From contig JAAUSC010000006.1 in the NCBI GenBank assembly GCA_012031965.1, positions 1 to 64,000 on the forward strand: a stretch of 64,000 bases of DNA, read 5' to 3'. A program made the translations under genes and the position numbers. The stretch is from Scytonema sp. RU_4_4 (GTDB taxonomy: Bacteria > Cyanobacteriota > Cyanobacteriia > Cyanobacteriales > Nostocaceae). Positions within the stretch are counted from its first letter, which is position 1. Every line of letters begins with the position of its first letter. Positions 1 through 7,726 of this stretch are shown here, one piece after another. The notes under the pieces are model-generated. The model was not told where the DNA came from and did no database searches. It saw only the letters and a program-made list of their open reading frames with translations.

Positions 1-530
1 AGGGATGCTGACTGCCATTCACTAATAAGATTTTGTCTATCTTTGTTAGTCAATGCGTCTTTATAGCTTTCTTATTCATTAAAAAATAAAACTTTCACTT
101 GATGTGTCTGCAGATCTTTGACTACCCTATTCGTTCAAGTTAACCCCATAAACTCCGAAAATAGGGAAATCAAAGTGTTCATGAACCCAGGAATAGCCCC
201 ATTAACACTAGCGAGGGGCTTCCAGGGTTAGCTACACGTCACGCGTACGATTAATTAGCTTCCCAGGGCTAATTAAATCTGCAGCTGTCTATCCTTTTCG
301 CCGGGGCTTACGACAGTTGCAGTAGACTCATGCGTCCACTTTCATGACGGCAACTGACCTTATTATGTTACACAAGACAAATCAAACGCAAGCTTTAGCA
401 AGCTTTGATAGCACCTTTTACAGGTGTATATATTGCTATGAGCAGCTGCTCCTCCAACCGGAGTGTAGTTTACGGTTAACCCCCATCTCGTTCAGACCCA
501 AAGACTCATTCTTGCGGTGGAGGTAAAGTC
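1..530. other. No convincing gene; two small hairpins
   Basis: I see no supported gene here. An open frame at 344-526 has no ribosome binding site and no recognisable domain. Two imperfect palindromes are visible: one at about 252-273 (aattagc/gctaatt arms) and one at 281-323 with 11-base arms differing by one base. They may be remnants of dispersed repeats. The segment lies upstream of the decayed ABC transporter and could once have held its promoter. Confidence 0.4.
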
Positions 531-985
531 ATGACATCAGAGTTTTCACAACAGCAGCTGTGTCAACAACTTGCTACAGCTTTTGACCAAACTGTTTCAT
601 AACAGGAACAGCTTAGAGTGCATCGCACAGGTAGAAATCGTAGAACCAGCACCCATAAAACAGTTTTGGCAAACAACAGACAGTATTGCAGGAATATATT
701 TCGTTCGTCGTAACAAAGTCAGACTGTTGGATAGCGCGGAGAACTTAATCACAACTTACAGTACAGGTTCCTTGTTTGGAGAAGTCACCTGTTTCCAGCA
801 CTAGACTTTGTCTCATATATCGCCAAAGCTTCAAGCAACCTCAAGCTTTGCTATCTCAAACAAGAGAAACTGCAAGCATTAAAGGTGGTGGGATGCTTTC
901 TGGCGGACAACCTCAACGTCTGGCGATACGCGAAGCGTCAAGCCTCCGGCTTATCGCCCGCGCATTGCTGGGTAATCTTTGATTC
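531..985 (+). pseudogene. Decayed peptide-export ABC transporter with cyclic-nucleotide-binding-like N-terminus
   Basis: Remains of a large ABC exporter lie in several frames. At 531 an ATG opens a short frame (MTSEFSQQQLCQQLATAFDQ) that stops near 600. The next frame (571-804) resembles a cNMP-binding fold ending in YSTGSLFGEVTCF. After a frameshift the reading continues as DFVSYIAKASSNLKLCYL. From about 892 the ABC signature region appears (LSGGQPQRLAI, then ARALLGN). The peptidase and membrane domains and the Walker A box are missing, so most of the gene has been deleted. In cyanobacteria, exporters of this build sit beside double-glycine precursor peptides, which fits the three peptide genes downstream. 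The fragment cannot make a working transporter. Confidence 0.65.
923..957 (+). repeat. 27-bp small repeat inserted inside a HIP1 site in the ABC signature motif
   Basis: The stretch starts gcgata and ends tatcgc. Removing 27 bases leaves the HIP1 octamer GCGATCGC and restores the ordinary protein motif LAIARALL. With the insert the reading is LAI, nine extra residues (REASSLRLI), then ARALL, still in frame. A related start (gcgatacgc) recurs at about 1044. This looks like a small palindromic dispersed repeat that landed in a HIP1 site. Confidence 0.6.
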
Positions 986-1684
986 TGAATTTTCCATGAA
1001 GCCAGATCACATCTTACAAGATTTCGTTGCGACAACGAGTGGTGCGATACGCCTTTAGGCGTCTGTCCTTATCTAATTTGGGTATAAAAAATTTTTCAAC
1101 CTATGTTGGATAAGCAGTTACGCTCTCAGAATCTATCAATAGTTGTTTTCTGAATAATTACAGCAACAGCTAGAAACACTAGAAATATTGACTATGTTAG
1201 ATTCCAATGCTCATCTTCAAGCATCAGAAAATGTGTTGATGCAGGCTTAGATTCAGTTATCGATTAGTCGCCATAAAGTTAAGGGGATTTGTTTTTTACA
1301 TCAAGAGAAAAATTTTTCAAACTATTCCTTTAAGGCTTTAATAGGCTAATTTTTGAACAAAACCGAGGTGATTGTTATGAGATTTTTTTAAAAAAGATTT
1401 TATTAAAAATTGACTTTTGAGATGAAAAATATCGTCTCAAACATAAATATATGGTTTATCTAATTGAGGCAATCCATATCTTTATGCTGCCTACTTTCTT
1501 CCTGTTTTTATTTATAAGAAAAAACCTACGAAAGGCAACAAAAAACAAATTTTTTATAATAAAATTTGATGAAAAAATAGCCGCCGTCGTTGAAGAAATA
1601 TGCTAGATTAATACACGTAATCAAATGGATTGTTTGATTACAAAAAAGCAAAAAGTGAAAACTCGTAATTCCGAGGAGAATCAT
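986..1684. other. Long non-coding or decayed stretch; possible HlyD-like remnant at 1160-1260
   Basis: No intact gene is visible. Around 1160-1290 one frame reads as a short heptad-rich helix (QQQLETLEILTMLDSNAHLQ), meets a stop, then continues IQLSISRHKVKG. This recalls the coiled-coil hairpin of a HlyD-type membrane-fusion protein, the usual partner of peptide exporters, but the stretch is too short to be sure. From about 1300 to 1620 the DNA is very AT-rich. It probably holds the promoter of the peptide genes, but I cannot point to clear -35 and -10 boxes. Confidence 0.35.
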
Positions 1685-1921
1685 ATGATTATTACAGACA
1701 TTTCTCACATCGAAATTGCTACTGAATATAATCAAATTCAAGGTGGATTTGCATCATCTAGTGCATATGCTAATGCATATGCTAACGGTAAGAACTTCGC
1801 TGTCACAAATACCAGCACTTATACAAGTGCAAGTTCTGGAAGCCACTACTACTACCCCTACTACTACAGCTACCCCAACAGTGCTTCCTCAAGCTCATCC
1901 TCAAGCTCCACTGCTGCATAG
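1685..1921 (+). CDS. Double-glycine leader peptide 1, Ser/Tyr/Ala-rich core
   Basis: A 78-residue product. I chose the ATG at 1685 because a strong Shine-Dalgarno (gaggag) lies just upstream and because the paralogue at 2462 starts the same way; a further-upstream frame from 1625 is possible. Leader: MIITDISHIEIATEYNQIQ ending in GG at residues 20-21, the classic cut site of C39-peptidase exporters. The core has no cysteine. It runs FASSSAYANAYANG, a Thr/Ser stretch, a Tyr/Pro block (YYYPYYYSYP) and a poly-Ser tail. The leader and core pattern is shared with the genes at 2021 and 2462. I infer an exported peptide of the cyanobacterial bacteriocin-like class; activity is unknown. The neighbouring exporter is dead, so export would need a transporter elsewhere. 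Confidence 0.75.
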   Translation: MIITDISHIEIATEYNQIQGGFASSSAYANAYANGKNFAVTNTSTYTSASSGSHYYYPYYYSYPNSASSSSSSSSTAA

Positions 1922-1963
1922 GTGGAACTTTGCTGAGAGGCATTGTAAATAGAAAAGGAAAAA

Positions 1964-1994
1964 TCGCTGAAAGTTGTTTAACAACTTTCAGCGA
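1964..1994 (+). terminator. Perfect 14-bp stem-loop between peptide genes 1 and 2
   Basis: Arms 1964-1977 and 1981-1994 are exact reverse complements with a 3-base loop (tta). No T-run follows, so it may act as an attenuator or RNA-stability hairpin rather than a full terminator. It ends 26 bases before the next start codon, just upstream of that gene's ribosome binding site. Confidence 0.6.
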
Positions 1995-2020
1995 TATATC
2001 TGCTTGAAAAAGGAGAAATC

Positions 2021-2323
2021 ATGAGTGGATTAAAAATTGTTGACCTAAGCTTTTTTGAAACTGAACTTCCGAGTCATACTCAAGTGTACGGAGGACTTCA
2101 AATTGGACTGACTGTCACCTCACCCACAAGCAGTGTATCAACCTTTGCTGCCTCTGATTCAACTTCAGATTACAACATATCTTATTCCTTTGACCCCGCA
2201 ACTGGCCAGTATAGCTATAGCATTGACTATGGATATAAATACGCTGTTGCTGGTGCTGCTGCTGGTTCCGCTGCTAATGGACCTACTTACACCACTGCTT
2301 ATGCCAGTGCAAGTGTTTCATAA
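2021..2323 (+). CDS. Double-glycine leader peptide 2, Ser/Ala/Tyr-rich core
   Basis: A 100-residue product starting at ATG 2021 with an excellent ribosome binding site (aaaggagaaatc). The leader MSGLKIVDLSFFETELPSHT continues QVYGG, with GG at residues 25-26. It shares the I/V-x-DLS-x-x-E pattern with the other two leaders but is more diverged. The core lacks cysteine and is rich in Ser, Thr, Ala and Tyr (YNISYSFDPATGQYSYSIDY, then Ala/Gly-rich). The composition suggests a flexible or beta-aggregating secreted peptide. Function unknown; it is likely co-transcribed with the genes at 1685 and 2462, with hairpins between them tuning levels. Confidence 0.7.
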   Translation: MSGLKIVDLSFFETELPSHTQVYGGLQIGLTVTSPTSSVSTFAASDSTSDYNISYSFDPATGQYSYSIDYGYKYAVAGAAAGSAANGPTYTTAYASASVS

Positions 2324-2351
2324 AGCTTGTTTTACCAAGTTTTAGTTTAAG

Positions 2352-2401
2352 AAGCTATTGGATAAAAGCTCCACAAAACACGTGATTTTATTCAATAGCT
2401 T
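2352..2401 (+). terminator. Stem-loop after peptide gene 2
   Basis: Arms 2352-2367 and 2386-2401 match at 15 of 16 positions around an 18-base loop, followed by ttct. Terminator-like or attenuator-like. Its sequence is unrelated to the hairpins after genes 1 and 3. Confidence 0.5.
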
Positions 2402-2461
2402 TTCTGTGACGTTGACAGCAACTCAGACTAATCAACTAGTCATTCTCAGGAGAACAATATC

Positions 2462-2659
2462 ATGATTATTAAAGACTTGTCTCACGTAGAAATTGTTCCT
2501 GAAGAAGCAAAAGAAGTTCAAGGTGGATTTCAATATTCTCCTTCCCAAGCAAACGCGGGTGCATTTGCATTTGCATCTGGGAGTGACTTTGCTCGCACCA
2601 TTACCATAACTTATACCGATGCAAGATCCTACTCAAACCGTATCTCTTATTCTAGTTGA
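2462..2659 (+). CDS. Double-glycine leader peptide 3, short Ser/Ala/Phe-rich core
   Basis: A 65-residue product from ATG 2462, with aggag 10 to 14 bases upstream. Leader MIIKDLSHVEIVPEEAKEVQ ends in GG at residues 21-22 and closely matches gene 1 (MII-x-D-L/I-SH-I/V-EI). The core reads FQYSPSQANAGAFAFASGSD followed by FARTITITYTDARSYSNR. Against gene 1 it keeps the order A-x-A-x-G-x-x-FA-x-T-x-T-x-TYT, so the core is paralogous too. No cysteine. Inferred to be an exported peptide of unknown activity. Confidence 0.72.
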   Translation: MIIKDLSHVEIVPEEAKEVQGGFQYSPSQANAGAFAFASGSDFARTITITYTDARSYSNRISYSS

Positions 2660-2674
2660 GATACCATAGGGGCT

Positions 2675-2707
2675 GAGGAAGCGGTTGCTGACAGCAACCA
2701 CTTCCTC
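2675..2707 (+). terminator. Terminator-like stem-loop after peptide gene 3
   Basis: Arms 2675-2689 and 2693-2707 match at 14 of 15 positions with a 3-base loop (gac), 16 bases past the stop codon. Only a weak T-run follows. It plausibly ends the peptide cassette transcript. Confidence 0.55.
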
Positions 2708-2786
2708 TTGAATAAAACCAAAATGAAAATAATTAATCATTTTGGAAAAACGGATATTTTATTTCTTGGAAGTTCCTAATGTCGTT

Positions 2787-3761
2787 TTATGGAATAAAAC
2801 GAGTTTCCTCTCTATCCCACTCCACACCTTGACAAAAGTCATCTATCCAATTAACTAAATGACTCGTGCTTGCAGGTGGTGGATTCACTTGGTTATGAGC
2901 ATCTTTTTGTGGAGTTGTCACAAGTCTACCTTTGCTTTCCATCTTTGTAGCCAACCCAACAGATGAAACAGCTTTGCTTTCCACTTCGCTAGCAATGACT
3001 GCAGCTGATGACACAAGTCTACTTTTGCTTTCCCCATCAGAAATCGCAACCGCAAGTAATGACCTATGTTTGCTTTTATTTTCCAACTGTGTAGCAAGGT
3101 CAACAGATGGTACAGATTGACTTTTGTTTTCAAATTTTGTAGAGAAAAACGCAACCAAGGGTATAAACTGGCTTTTGCCTTCTAGTTGAGTGCTAGTAAC
3201 TGTCATCAAAGGCATAGAGTAGCTGTCCATTTGAGTGCTAGCAACTTCCACAGCTTGTACGCATTGACTGAGACTTTTCTCCTCACTAGCAGTTGTAGCA
3301 AAAGTCAAATGTTTACACTCGCTAAGCGTTTGAAAAGGAACTGCGCTAGTCACTGCAATAGATGGTACAGGTTGGTTGTTGTTTTCTTTTTCTACAGTAA
3401 CGAAACTGGGAGTTACAGGCTGATGATCGGGTAAAGTCTGGAGAGCAGACTCACAGTTCAACTCACTTTCAGCTACAGAATCTACTGATTCTACTAAGTG
3501 TAAGTGCTCCTCAGGATTAAAGTTAAGACCTAAAGCGACAACAATCTGATCAGGATCGTTGTTGAGTTCCAAAATAAAAGGCAAAACTTCTTCAAGCTGT
3601 GGTTCCAAAACAGACAAAGTTGCCAATATAAAACCAGAGTTCGGGCGACGCTCACCATCGTAAGTTCCCCAAACTCTCGTTTTTACCAGCCATGAACGAT
3701 TGTTGTAGTAGTAACTCACCCACTTAAGTTTCAAAGACTGACGTAGCTGCTGAATATTCAT
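2787..3761 (-). CDS. DUF5331-like protein with C-terminal degenerate repeats
   Basis: A protein of 324 residues from ATG 3761; the longer frame from 3785 would use TTG. The first 90 residues (MNIQQLRQSLKLKW, later YDGERRPNSGFILATLSVLE) match the product at 37998-38797 between chlL and chlN, so this is a paralogue of that cyanobacterial family of unknown function. After residue 100 the sequence becomes low-complexity and contains imperfect repeats of about 19-23 residues of the form E-x-K-S-x-x-V-x-S, roughly residues 155-285. The end has a distinct Trp-containing tail (LVNWIDDFCQGVEWDREE). No membrane segment. The gene stands alone with the ferredoxin gene just upstream on the same strand, 62 bases away. 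Function unknown. Confidence 0.7.
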   Translation of the reverse strand: MNIQQLRQSLKLKWVSYYYNNRSWLVKTRVWGTYDGERRPNSGFILATLSVLEPQLEEVLPFILELNNDPDQIVVALGLNFNPEEHLHLVESVDSVAESELNCESALQTLPDHQPVTPSFVTVEKENNNQPVPSIAVTSAVPFQTLSECKHLTFATTASEEKSLSQCVQAVEVASTQMDSYSMPLMTVTSTQLEGKSQFIPLVAFFSTKFENKSQSVPSVDLATQLENKSKHRSLLAVAISDGESKSRLVSSAAVIASEVESKAVSSVGLATKMESKGRLVTTPQKDAHNQVNPPPASTSHLVNWIDDFCQGVEWDREETRFIP

Positions 3762-3823
3762 AATCAGATGTCTCGCTTCGGTCAAAAAGAGTGCAGATTT
3801 CTATAAATTGTTAATAATGAACT

Positions 3824-4153
3824 TTATCCCTGTGGATGAAACCGATAATAGAGCATCTGTGTCACTCTTTGACTACCGCGTAAATGTTGTTCTACCAGTA
3901 GAGGTACTTCATTTGGATGAACACGACTGTACCAGACCATATCAGGTAGTACCAACACCATTGGTCCATTACCGCATTGTCCCAAGCAGCTAGAACCAGT
4001 GACAGTCACTTCAAGAGTTGCTAACGCTTCAAAAGCCGCTAATACCTTTGCTGCACCTTGTTTGCGACAAGTGCGATTTTGGCAAACACGAACGCACTTA
4101 GGGGAAACAAGTGACGTTGCTGGGGAGTCAGAGGATGGAGATATACTTTCCAT
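3824..4153 (-). CDS. Thioredoxin-like [2Fe-2S] ferredoxin domain protein
   Basis: 109 residues. The cysteine pattern is CVRVCQNRTC near residues 21-30 and SSCLGQCGNGP near 55-65, as in the thioredoxin-fold [2Fe-2S] ferredoxins related to NuoE. Such proteins carry an electron-transfer cluster in the cytoplasm; the partner is not evident here. It lies between cysK and the DUF5331 paralogue, all on the minus strand, so co-transcription with cysK is possible (68-base gap). The last 20 residues are family-variable. Confidence 0.82.
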   Translation of the reverse strand: MESISPSSDSPATSLVSPKCVRVCQNRTCRKQGAAKVLAAFEALATLEVTVTGSSCLGQCGNGPMVLVLPDMVWYSRVHPNEVPLLVEQHLRGSQRVTQMLYYRFHPQG

Positions 4154-4221
4154 TTGTCATGTGTCAGTTGTCATTTCAGTGTTAGTTGTTGGGTGTTCTA
4201 TAATGCTTTTCACTTCAATGA

Positions 4222-5196
4222 CTAATCTAGAGAAAGACCTTTTGATTCCAACCATTCACGGTTGAAGATGCGCGACTGGTAACGGGAACCGCTATCACAC
4301 AAAATGGTGACGATAGTGTGTCCTGGTCCCATTTGTTTTGCTAAAGCAACGGCTGCAGCAACATTTATACCGGTAGAGCCACCCATGAATAAGCCATCTT
4401 TCCGCAGTAACTGATAAACAACCTGTATGGCTTCGCGGTCATCAATCAGGATGGCGTCGTCAGTAGGTGCATCTTCCATGTTAGCGGTGATACGACTGTT
4501 ACCGATGCCTTCGGTAATAGAATTGCCTTCAATCTTGATTTCGCCTGTTTTGATATAGCTGTAAAGTCCGCTTCCCTTTGGATCTGCAACAATGCATTTG
4601 ATTGCTGGGTTTTTCTCTTTCAAATACATTGCTACGCCTGCAAAGGTTCCACCAGTTCCTGTTGAAGCCACCCAAGCATCAACTTTACCATCTGTCTGTG
4701 CCCAAATTTCTGGTCCTGTGGTTTCGTAATGAGCACGTCGGTTTGCTAAGTTATCAAACTGATTTGCCCAAATGGCATTTTCCATCTCGCTAGCGACTCT
4801 ACCAGAAAGTTTGACGTAGTTGTTAGGATCTTTGTAGGGTACAGCGGGGACAGGGCGAACTTCTGCGCCTAATGCCCTCAAAGCATCCATCTTCTCTTGG
4901 GACTGTGTGTTAGGAATTATAATCAAGCATTTATAGCCTTTGGCGTTGCATATATGTGCCAACCCAATGCCAGTATTACCAGCTGTTCCCTCTACTACTG
5001 TCCCACCAGGTTTGAGTAAACCTTTTTCTTCGGCATCTTGAATAATGTAAAGTGCTGCCCTATCTTTAACGGAACCACCAGGGTTGAGAAATTCTGCTTT
5101 ACCAAGAATGTCACACCCAGTTTCTTCACTAAAGCTGTTTAAACGAATAAGTGGTGTATGACCTACAGTATCTACAAAGCCGTTTTTGATATCCAT
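4222..5196 (-). CDS. cysK: Cysteine synthase A (O-acetylserine sulfhydrylase)
   Basis: 324 residues, the family's usual length. A fold-type II PLP enzyme joining sulfide and O-acetylserine to make cysteine. The PLP lysine is K44 in [10 protein letters not shown]. The substrate loop [12 protein letters not shown] and the phosphate-binding glycine loop near [10 protein letters not shown] are both present. Starts at ATG 5196. The C-terminus ([14 protein letters not shown]) is typical of the cyanobacterial form. Cystathionine beta-synthase-like relatives share this core, but the lack of a CBS domain and the length favour CysK. Confidence 0.92.
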
Positions 5197-5644
5197 GTTT
5201 AAACTTAATTGATGAAGACTATGCTTTTGGCATCAGATAGTTTCAACTAGACGTAACTCCAACAGGCGTGACGCTTTATTGACCCTATACTGATTTTAGA
5301 GAGGTCTTTGTTCTAAGATTAAGGCTTTCCCCCAACAGACTCAAAAATTTTCATGCCGTCAACCACCAATTGCAGTGTCGTGCTAAATCCTACAGCTAAA
5401 GTGCAGCAATATAAGACTTAAATTTTTATAAAAATTCTGAAAATCATTTTTTCTATCTATAAAGATTTAGTAAAGATTTTTGGGCGATGACACGTATAAT
5501 TACTGACAAAAACTCTTGTTAATATCTTCATTAGCCCATGTTATAGATGTTTCACAGGAAATGATATAAAGGGTGTGATACCTCACCAATCAATTAAAAT
5601 TTACACTTAATTTCTCAGGCTACGTCTTTTAAATAGCACATATC
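5197..5644. other. Divergent intergenic region between cysK and the hybrid kinase
   Basis: 448 bases with no gene. It must hold the outward promoters of cysK (minus) and the histidine kinase (plus). The part from 5400 to 5540 is AT-rich. I cannot identify a binding site with confidence. Confidence 0.5.
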
Positions 5645-7726
5645 ATGCTTCGCATACTCCTAATTGATGACAACTTTGATGATCACCTGTCGATAACACG
5701 GCAACTAGAGCAAGAATTTTCTCCAATAGAGGTCACCTCTATTAATGCTAAGAGTTTTGAGGAAGCGCTAACAGCAGGTAATTTTGATATCGCAATCACG
5801 GACTATTGTCTAAACTGGACTGATGGCTTAAAGGTTCTCGAAACCATTAAAGCTAGATATCCAAAGTGTCCTGTCATTATGTACACTGATAACGGCAACG
5901 AAGAAGTTGCTGTCTTGGGCATGAAGTCTGGGCTGAGTGACTATGTTTTAAAGGGAAAGCTTTGGTTGCTTGTGATCGCAATTAGGGAAAGTTTAGAAAA
6001 GCAGACATTACTGCACGAATATGCTGTTGCTGTTGAGCGATCGCAAGTTAGCGAAGAGCGTTTAGAACTGGCAATGAAAGCTGCTAATTTGGGTACCTGG
6101 GACTGGAATATGGTAACCGGTGAAGTGATTTGGTCTGAAAATCACGAACAATTATTTGGTTTACCTTCAGGAAGCTTTCTAGGAAATTATGAAGCATTTA
6201 TTTCCTATATTCATCCGGAAGACAGAGAAACAATTACTCAAGCTATTACCCATGCCTTAAAAACAAAAACTGACTACAACAATGAATTTCGCGTTGTTTG
6301 GTTTGATGGAAGTATTCATTGGATTTTAGGAAAAGGTAATTTTTACTATCACGATACGGGTAAACCTGTGCGCATGATAGGAGTGGTGTTGGACATCACC
6401 GAGCGTAAGCAGCGGGAAGAAGAACTAGAGCAAGCAAATCGCTTAAAAGATGAATTTCTTGCGATTGTCTCCCACGAACTTCGCACTCCTTTGAACGCAA
6501 TTCTAGGTTGGGCACAGTTACTACGTAGCCGCAACTTTGATGAAGCAACTAGAAATCATAGTCTAGAAATTATTGAACGCAGTGCCTTTCAACAAAATCA
6601 GTTAATTAATGACATTCTCGATACTTCTCGCTTGATGCGAGGGCAAATGCATCTGTGTGTATCTCCTATTAATCTAGTAAACGTAATTGAGAACGCTCTT
6701 AATACTGTACAGTTATCAGCCCAAGCAAAATCCATTACTTTGGAACCCTCACTAGAGCGCTCAGTTGCAGTGGTGATGGGAGACGAAAATCGCTTGCATC
6801 AGATTATTTGGAATTTACTTTCTAATGCAATTAAATTCACCCCTTTAGGGGGACGGGTTACAGTGAAGCTGTTAATTAGTACTGAGTTAAACTCTTCTGA
6901 CTCACTCACGCCAGTCCGCTCAACGGAACGGACAGTTTCTTCCAGAGGGTTTTTCTCCTCCGTTAGCGGTAGCTCCATCCTACCTTTCAAGAACGTCTAC
7001 GGCGAACGGGAAGCATTGTCCTCGGAAACTTCCGCACGCGGCTGGCTCCTCAAAACTCAGTACTCAGCACTGATTCAAGTCAGCGATACTGGTGAAGGTA
7101 TCAGTCCTGAGTTTCTACCCCACGTGTTTGACCACTTTCGCCAAGCTGACAGTACAACGACACGTTCTAATAGCGGGCTTGGTTTGGGATTAGCGATTGT
7201 TCAACAACTCGTGGAATTGCACGGAGGCACAGTTGCAGCAGAAAGTCAAGGAAAAGGAAAAGGAGCAACTTTTACTGTCAAGCTGCCACTTTTAGAAATG
7301 AATACACAGGAGCCAAAAGTCAGTCGTACACAAATTTCTCATCACTCACAGTTCAATGACGTGCAAATCCTAGTGGTTGATGATGATAGTTCTACTTTAG
7401 AACTACTGGAAGAAATTTTGCAAGGCGCAGGCGCAAAGGTGATAGGTGTTGCATCCGCCAGTGCAGCTTTACAGGTTTTGGAAGAACTCAAATTTGATGT
7501 ACTCATTAGTGACATTGGAATGCCACACACGAGTGGTTACGCTTTGATTCGTCAAGTCAGACTTAACGAGGTGGGGCAAACACAGAGAATTCCAGCCGTT
7601 GCACTCACAGCTTACAGCAGAGAACAAGACAAATTCGAGGCACTAGAGGCAGGATTCCACATTTTCTTGCCCAAACCAGTGAACCCTGTAGAATTAATGG
7701 GTGCAATATCTAGCCTTTTGGAATGA
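5645..7726 (+). CDS. Hybrid sensor histidine kinase (REC-PAS-HisKA-HATPase-REC)
   Basis: 693 residues, cytoplasmic, no membrane segment. Order: receiver domain (about 1-115, LLIDDNFDDH and phospho-Asp in ITDYCLN); PAS/PAC (about 135-258, ending DITERKQREEELEQAN); HisKA with SHELRTP, His277; HATPase with N-box NLLSNAIKFTP, G1 DTGEGI and G2 GLGLGLAI; a second receiver (LVVDDDSSTLELLE, phospho-Asp in ISDIGMP). A receiver first, then a kinase, suggests input by phosphotransfer or response to another kinase. Between the N-box and G1 lies a 50-residue low-complexity insert (about residues 418-470), encoded by a dispersed repeat, where the family normally has a short lid connection. The gene stands alone. 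The signal is unknown. Confidence 0.88.
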   Translation: MLRILLIDDNFDDHLSITRQLEQEFSPIEVTSINAKSFEEALTAGNFDIAITDYCLNWTDGLKVLETIKARYPKCPVIMYTDNGNEEVAVLGMKSGLSDYVLKGKLWLLVIAIRESLEKQTLLHEYAVAVERSQVSEERLELAMKAANLGTWDWNMVTGEVIWSENHEQLFGLPSGSFLGNYEAFISYIHPEDRETITQAITHALKTKTDYNNEFRVVWFDGSIHWILGKGNFYYHDTGKPVRMIGVVLDITERKQREEELEQANRLKDEFLAIVSHELRTPLNAILGWAQLLRSRNFDEATRNHSLEIIERSAFQQNQLINDILDTSRLMRGQMHLCVSPINLVNVIENALNTVQLSAQAKSITLEPSLERSVAVVMGDENRLHQIIWNLLSNAIKFTPLGGRVTVKLLISTELNSSDSLTPVRSTERTVSSRGFFSSVSGSSILPFKNVYGEREALSSETSARGWLLKTQYSALIQVSDTGEGISPEFLPHVFDHFRQADSTTTRSNSGLGLGLAIVQQLVELHGGTVAAESQGKGKGATFTVKLPLLEMNTQEPKVSRTQISHHSQFNDVQILVVDDDSSTLELLEEILQGAGAKVIGVASASAALQVLEELKFDVLISDIGMPHTSGYALIRQVRLNEVGQTQRIPAVALTAYSREQDKFEALEAGFHIFLPKPVNPVELMGAISSLLE
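6900..7053 (-). repeat. Dispersed repeat embedded in frame in the histidine kinase ATPase domain
   Basis: Read on the minus strand it begins gaggagccagc, contains a cttcccgttcgccgt core and ends gactggcgtgagtga. The same three blocks in the same order occur inside recO (59362-59475), and the edges recur in the element at 17676-17961. The kinase frame stays open through it. This is a member of a small repeat family in this genome. Confidence 0.6.

Follow-up and report, generated by a model that had tools for sequence, protein, structure and literature searches.

Architecture of the Three-Gene Cassette

The window, meaning the whole 64,000-nucleotide stretch that was analysed, comprises positions 1-64,000 of contig C367, which is 69,909 bases long and belongs to a 7.3 Mb genome. 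Among named relatives, Brasilonema and Scytonema hyalinum stand closest to this genome, which is most likely itself a Brasilonema. Close to the start of the window lie three short genes (Table 1), each preceded by a good ribosome binding site and encoding a small precursor with a double-glycine (GG) leader (MIITDISHIEIATEYNQIQGG, MSGLKIVDLSFFETELPSHTQVYGG, and MIIKDLSHVEIVPEEAKEVQGG for genes 1, 2, and 3). The predicted cores that follow the GG are 57, 75, and 43 aa long and begin FASSSAY, LQIGLTV, and FQYSPSQ, respectively; they contain no Cys and are rich in Ser, Ala, Tyr, and Thr. The genes, their ribosome binding sites, the GG leaders, and the Cys-free cores had been proposed in an earlier sequence-only reading and were found where it had placed them. 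That reading had also proposed that genes 1 and 3 are paralogues in their cores as well as in their leaders, and this holds (54% identity in residues 1-54, E 5.6e-8). Family alignment places gene 2 in a second precursor family.

Searches with the three peptides returned no match in Pfam or PADLOC, a single match below cut-off in NCBIfam (E 0.14), and four weak matches in a PDB sequence search (best E 0.09). The NHLP and Nif11 leader models of NCBIfam and Pfam did not match the precursors, the combination of Cys with Ser/Thr that marks a lanthipeptide core is absent from all three, and Rfam gave no match over window positions 1-6000 at E ≤ 0.1. The inverted repeat upstream of gene 1 is partially retained in relatives, as judged by eye, and could possibly serve as an operator or as a 5' UTR hairpin of that gene. 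At the contig edge, window positions 1-268 recur at 99% identity on another contig of this genome, C51.

Table 1. Features of the cassette and of the decayed genes upstream (window coordinates).
Feature	Position	Strand	Description	Basis
Long-type PCAT remnant	531..881	+	N-terminal cNMP part (aa 1-115), two frames	tblastn to PCAT of L026 (S. hyalinum), three pieces 62-74%, E 3e-26
PCAT ATPase remnant	866..1015	+	aa 910-950, iterated repeat inside	tblastn 60%, E 4e-7
HlyD gene remnant	995..1053	+		blastn 81-83% over 59 bases to HlyD of L023, L024, L025
PpiC rotamase remnant	1049..1261	+	C-terminal part (aa 197-260)	tblastn 59-74%; blastn 73-79%
Inverted repeat	1617..1641	+	9-bp perfect, GTAATCAAA-N7-TTTGATTAC; 43 bases before gene 1	Sequence and alignment
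Ribosome binding site of gene 1	1673..1678	+	GAGGAG	Sequence and alignment with relatives
Gene 1	1685..1921	+	78 aa GG precursor; leader 1685-1747, core 1748-1918	Sequence, paralogue and family alignments
Hairpin 1	1963..1995	+	15-bp stem, conserved 5' element of gene 2	Folding against shuffles, alignment
Gene 2	2021..2323	+	100 aa GG precursor, second family; leader 2021-2095, core 2096-2320	Alignment
Hairpin 2	about 2350..2401	+	After gene 2; arms 2352-2367 and 2386-2401	Folding, alignment
Gene 3	2462..2659	+	65 aa GG precursor, gene 1 paralogue; leader 2462-2527, core 2528-2656	
Hairpin 3	2675..2707	+	After gene 3; terminator-like in three relatives	Folding, alignment

The sequence-only reading had also placed one strong hairpin behind each gene. 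Their strength holds, as none of 200 dinucleotide shuffles folded as well as hairpin 1, 2, or 3 (z -6.1, -3.6, and -4.9), and relatives carry hairpins behind the same genes, with the exceptions that other sequence is inserted between gene 1 and hairpin 1 in three genomes (G002, G004, and G005) and that hairpin 3 is different in a fourth (G011). Hairpins 2 and 3 do follow genes 2 and 3, but hairpin 1 is assigned to the 5' region of gene 2, because its distance to the gene 2 start is constant among relatives at ~24-26 nt whereas its distance to gene 1 varies. The pattern of hairpin 1, GCTGAAAG...CTTTCAGCGATAT, occurs exactly in five of 59 genomes, the window genome included, and all eight matches lie at the cassette locus. 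No U-run follows its stem on the + strand, and it is therefore more likely to serve gene 2 as a processing or stability element than to be a terminator. Hairpin 3 is accompanied by a U-run in three Brasilonema relatives, where it looks like a terminator. Covariation in hairpins 1 and 3 amounts to one both-side change each, no better than in shuffles, and is too sparse to serve as proof of RNA function. The deliberate tuning of transcript levels or stability that the sequence-only reading had suggested for the hairpins thus has their conservation in its favour but no support from covariation.

A Widespread Core Family with Alternating Residues

All three genes occur in the same order in four genomes of Brasilonema and Scytonema (G002, G004, G005, and G011), and a search of 59 genomes, the window genome included, gave matches to gene 3 in 11 (E ≤ 0.01). 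Across the order, a profile of genes 1 and 3, built from 15 rows, finds matches in 49 of 290 genomes and 30 of 125 genera (E ≤ 1e-4); homologues retaining leader and GG, which the sequence-only reading had named as a check, thus exist well beyond the window genome. Random in-frame variation of the cores, which the same reading had held would speak against it, was not found: most cores of the family retain the order A.A.A.G..FA.T.T.TYT.A, core indels among close relatives are whole codons, and Cys is present in only two of 70 family cores. The mean composition of whole cores is 20% Ser, 18% Ala, 11% Tyr, 9% Thr, and 8% Gly.

The cores display a strong alternation of residues. Among the first 32 residues of 42 cores with mutual identity below 60%, identities at a spacing of two residues number 290 where shuffling predicts 132 (z 15.5), and at a spacing of four 247 where it predicts 122, while identities at spacings of one and three are depleted. 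The z values are overstated, as the sequences are related and the cores were chosen by a model trained on such cores; a lag-2 z of 11.0 is still reached by 29 cores whose identity to the model rows, and among themselves, is below 50%. In the leaders of these proteins the trend is reversed (z -3.9), and controls show little (z 2.4 for 38 other small GG open reading frames, z 2.9 for 200 random segments of neighbouring proteins). Cores of the gene 2 type alternate as well (z 7.3, 19 cores), and each window core is singly significant at lag 2 (P 0.01 or less), although some family cores are without alternation when tested singly. Such a pattern suggests that the core would form a strand-turn-strand unit with one Ala face and one Thr face, apt to stack. 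AlphaFold2 models are of low confidence (pLDDT 48 and 38); the gene 1 strands that they place at 23-32 and 42-51 match the alternation, at a confidence too low to count as evidence.

Export Machinery in Relatives and Its Remains in the Window

In Scytonema hyalinum (locus L026) the cassette forms part of a complete system in the order PCAT (a peptidase-containing ABC exporter, with cNMP, C39, and ABC domains), HlyD, PpiC rotamase, genes 1, 2, and 3, and a convergently transcribed gene for a PEP-CTERM protein. The HlyD and rotamase genes are whole there and at the Brasilonema loci L023-L025. The loci of 20 of the next-best 21 genomes matched by the genes 1/3 profile, several of them cut by contig ends, carry a PCAT in 17/20, HlyD in 17/20, HetP in 17/20, the rotamase in 18/20, and a PEP-CTERM protein in 12/20. 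HetP identity was checked against NCBIfam for two precursor-locus proteins (L031 and L142) and three proteins of hetP loci.

These loci have the architecture of the group I/II "bacteriocin" clusters of Wang et al. (2011), which are described as carrying SurA and, above all in group II, HetP (PMC3140520). The likeness extends to the long-type PCAT (cNMP-C39-ABC), HlyD, SurA-type rotamase, HetP, and GG precursors of the relatives' loci, and to the leaders, which resemble the motif KIxDLxYLEx10GG given in that paper for HetP-type precursors (PMC3140520). Two differences stand out. The paper reports very little core conservation, whereas a single alternating core family spans many genera here, and the long-type PCAT that S. 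hyalinum retains at this locus is not present in the window, where GG precursors are found but PCAT, HlyD, and rotamase are only fragments. The cassette can be placed among the group I/II GG-peptide systems as a variant that has been orphaned of its export genes and whose core type is unusual and well defined.

The fragments, which the sequence-only reading had missed, lie at 531-1261 in an order collinear with the ancestral one; their frames change, long segments are deleted, and a repeat has been inserted. This interval is what is left of the cassette's own export genes. Window positions 18-880 match L026 at 70% of nucleotides, and positions 39-880 share 81% identity with the beginning of a further exporter gene set, on contig C73 of the window genome, which makes sequence exchange between these two exporter copies possible. 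The repeat inserted in the PCAT remnant, at ~921-960, has copies in 7/7 genomes of the genus.

Loss of the local PCAT is paralleled in G002, G004, and G005, where PCAT survives only as fragments and HlyD and the rotamase are retained. The window genome encodes four long PCATs without internal stops, called long by frame length and N-terminal match, each with an HlyD (contigs C332, C256, C345, and C302; the HlyD adjoining the C256 PCAT matches in two pieces). Since the local machinery is decayed and these four sets are present, the peptides, if made, are probably exported in trans by one of the four. A fifth long PCAT, on C73 (L082), has an internal stop; beside it lie an HlyD, a rotamase whose match is split over two frames, and two GG precursors with cores of a different type.

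Precursors standing apart from an exporter are found at six further loci as well as in Brasilonema: a precursor and a PEP-CTERM gene, with no exporter in the stretch, occur at L128, L129, L131, L132, and L133 (Nostocales) and at L145. The PEP-CTERM protein of L026 (7268-8107, + strand) passes the PEP-CTERM domain cut-off, and those neighbouring the precursors of L142 and L136 give family matches below cut-off only. No PEP-CTERM protein was matched at the Brasilonema cassette loci L023-L025, and more distant copies lie elsewhere in the window genome (C141 and C272). Genome-wide, PEP-CTERM matches number 0-6 per genome in 20 genomes. PEP-CTERM proteins are linked to envelope polysaccharide, and the neighbour points to a role at the cell surface. 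The term PEP-CTERM does not occur in PMC3140520.

A Probable Role as Secreted Matrix or Envelope Peptides

The closest functional counterparts are the EbfG1-4 proteins of Synechococcus elongatus PCC 7942, tandemly encoded GG peptides reported to enable biofilm formation, whose efficient secretion requires the C39 cysteine of PteB (PMC4997328). EbfG1-3 are described as amyloid-prone or amyloid-forming and EbfG4 as a protein of both cell surface and matrix (PMC9981879). The sequence-only reading had stated that no characterised product with such cores was known and so overlooked these proteins. The likeness is one of kind, drawn from the published description of EbfG: both sets consist of several small GG-leader proteins encoded by tandem genes. 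Mature EbfG reportedly has no homologues among other cyanobacterial proteins, which counts against the parallel (PMC4997328). Amyloid formation and PCAT-dependent secretion are reported for EbfG; of the cassette peptides it is the alternation of the cores that is shown.

On balance, the evidence leans toward the products being secreted, self-assembling peptides of the matrix or envelope, belonging to a long-PCAT system, EbfG-like, and exported in trans if at all. The C39 peptidase of a PCAT would cut the precursors after the GG, PCAT and HlyD would release the cores outside the cell, and the alternating β-strands of the cores would then assemble into envelope or matrix material, as EbfG does; in the window strain, export would proceed through one of the four other long PCATs with HlyD. 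A structural role is likely. The earlier suggestion that the cores look self-assembling or surface-coating gains from the β-strand pattern and from the PEP-CTERM neighbour at 12 of 20 loci, while self-assembly itself is still inferred. Cyanobacterial GG peptides have mostly been filed as bacteriocins; the core family described here bears a structural β-strand signature, and its occurrence across many genera, together with the frequent PEP-CTERM neighbour, argues for envelope or matrix use.

The decay of PCAT, HlyD, and rotamase to rubble also invites the reading that the cassette is a dying relic, which would have ceased to yield an exported product once its exporter was lost and would now be subject to drift. 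Selection on the precursors is weak to modest (omega ~0.6), and among the three PCAT-less Brasilonema alone constraint is not significant (2dlnL 1.29). Gene 3 is without a match in two congeners (G001 and G006), and in B. bromeliae (L027) it is truncated past its leader. Against such drift, the three frames of the window are intact with ribosome binding sites and hairpins in place, and over five taxa omega = 1 is rejected for the three genes joined (2dlnL 8.15); singly, genes 1, 2, and 3 give 3.02, 5.08, and 0.69, of which only gene 2 passes. With Brasilonema relatives the precursor block shares 79-86% identity, compared with 73-78% for the longer pieces of rubble, whose HlyD and rotamase counterparts are still genes in the relatives compared. 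Furthermore, omega = 1 is rejected for both HlyD and rotamase of the three PCAT-less Brasilonema (2dlnL 7.0 and 17.9), as expected of purifying selection, and their constraint without a local PCAT points to a PCAT acting in trans. A relic is accordingly judged unlikely. In B. bromeliae (L027 12020-13216), the gene 3 leader continues after its GG region into foreign sequence, and the next open reading frame reads, by eye only, like a group II intron reverse transcriptase.

The name given to the clusters by Wang et al. would make these bacteriocin-like antimicrobial peptides, in keeping with the C39 exporter, the GG leaders, and the cluster type (PMC3140520). The Cys-poor, Ser/Ala/Tyr-rich, alternating cores argue against this, as do the outcomes of the Pfam, PADLOC, and NCBIfam searches given above and the report that EbfG, a functionally tested cyanobacterial set of this sort, serves biofilm formation (PMC4997328). 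An antimicrobial role is considered improbable.

A Possible Link to HetC

The cassette also bears on HetC of Nostoc/Anabaena PCC 7120, which is likewise a long PCAT encoded beside hetP (PMC10986499, PMC4133259). According to these papers, no membrane fusion protein is found near hetC and the HetC substrate is unknown; one of them notes that HetC homologues elsewhere do have a membrane fusion protein. In phylogenetic trees, 19 PCAT rows from 18 HetP-bearing precursor loci (clade B) form one clade with HetC-type PCATs, supported at 100/100 with two HetC rows and at 100/99 in a re-sampled set with eight; these HetC rows were named by their position beside hetP without a full HlyD and by a length of 1043-1078 aa. 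By these trees HetC groups with clade B. The exporters of Scytonema, Brasilonema, and the window genome stand apart as clade A, so that the exporter beside the cassette in relatives differs in clade from HetC. A position of HetC nested inside clade B was considered and set aside: bootstraps favour it, with B alone as a clade in 0% of 200 trees, but B as a single clade survives the AU tests (p 0.19 and 0.33).

Contig C21 of Scytonema hyalinum carries both systems in one run of ~18 kb, comprising hetC, a short HlyD, hetP, rotamase, clade A PCAT, HlyD, rotamase, genes 1-3, and the PEP-CTERM gene. A clade B-like rotamase (57-62%) lies downstream of hetP at L196, L227, L228, and L234. Thirteen intervals before hetP were examined, eight of them with hetC in place. 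An open reading frame of 208-336 aa that matches the clade B HlyD model is present in 11 of the 13 and in six of the eight with hetC; eight of the 13 intervals come from loci fetched for a match to this very frame, and five were found through HetP. Among the latter five, three contain the HlyD-like frame and two (L195 and L196) fall below threshold, the frame of L196 resembling that of L192 (E 9e-8). Ten of the frames match at E < 1e-9, and shuffled frames gave 0 matches. The frames of ~236-336 aa belong to L192-L194, L227-L231, L233, and L234. The N- and C-terminal parts of the model are joined in five, and in four of these five (L228, L229, L230, and L233) most of its middle is absent. Three score 69-89 bits against the clade B model and 22-31 against that of clade A (best domain), and pairwise omega among five is 0.41-0.60. 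This short HlyD-like protein is a candidate membrane fusion protein for HetC, and the interval before hetP is a concrete place to look for the one that HetC is missing.

It is tentatively proposed, and with considerable doubt, that the cassette belongs to a widespread class of secreted, structural, β-alternating peptides whose ancestral locus comprised PCAT, HlyD, HetP, precursors, and rotamase with a convergent PEP-CTERM gene, and that the hetC-hetP locus descended from it. The exporter would have been kept as hetC, HlyD would have shrunk, losing most of its coiled-coil middle in several lineages, and a clade A exporter set would have taken over the peptides. If this is true, HetC would carry into the periplasm an envelope peptide of this class or a descendant of one, and HetC-type exporters would gain a candidate ancestral cargo, a question that PMC10986499 names as open. 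The HetC connection is the part of this analysis most worth following.

That the cassette peptides themselves are signals of cell differentiation carried by HetC-type exporters is very improbable, since, despite the 100/99 grouping of PCATs from HetP-bearing loci with HetC-type PCATs and the single run with hetC and hetP in S. hyalinum, the PCAT adjoining the Scytonema cassette is of clade A, the cores are long and repetitive for signals, and neither a family search nor a protein query found HetP in the window genome. In four Brasilonema loci (L192, L193, L194, and L235), no full hetC lies upstream of hetP within the stretches seen, and hetC may have been lost or moved in these strains. Short fragments of hetC are present upstream of hetP at L193 and L235.
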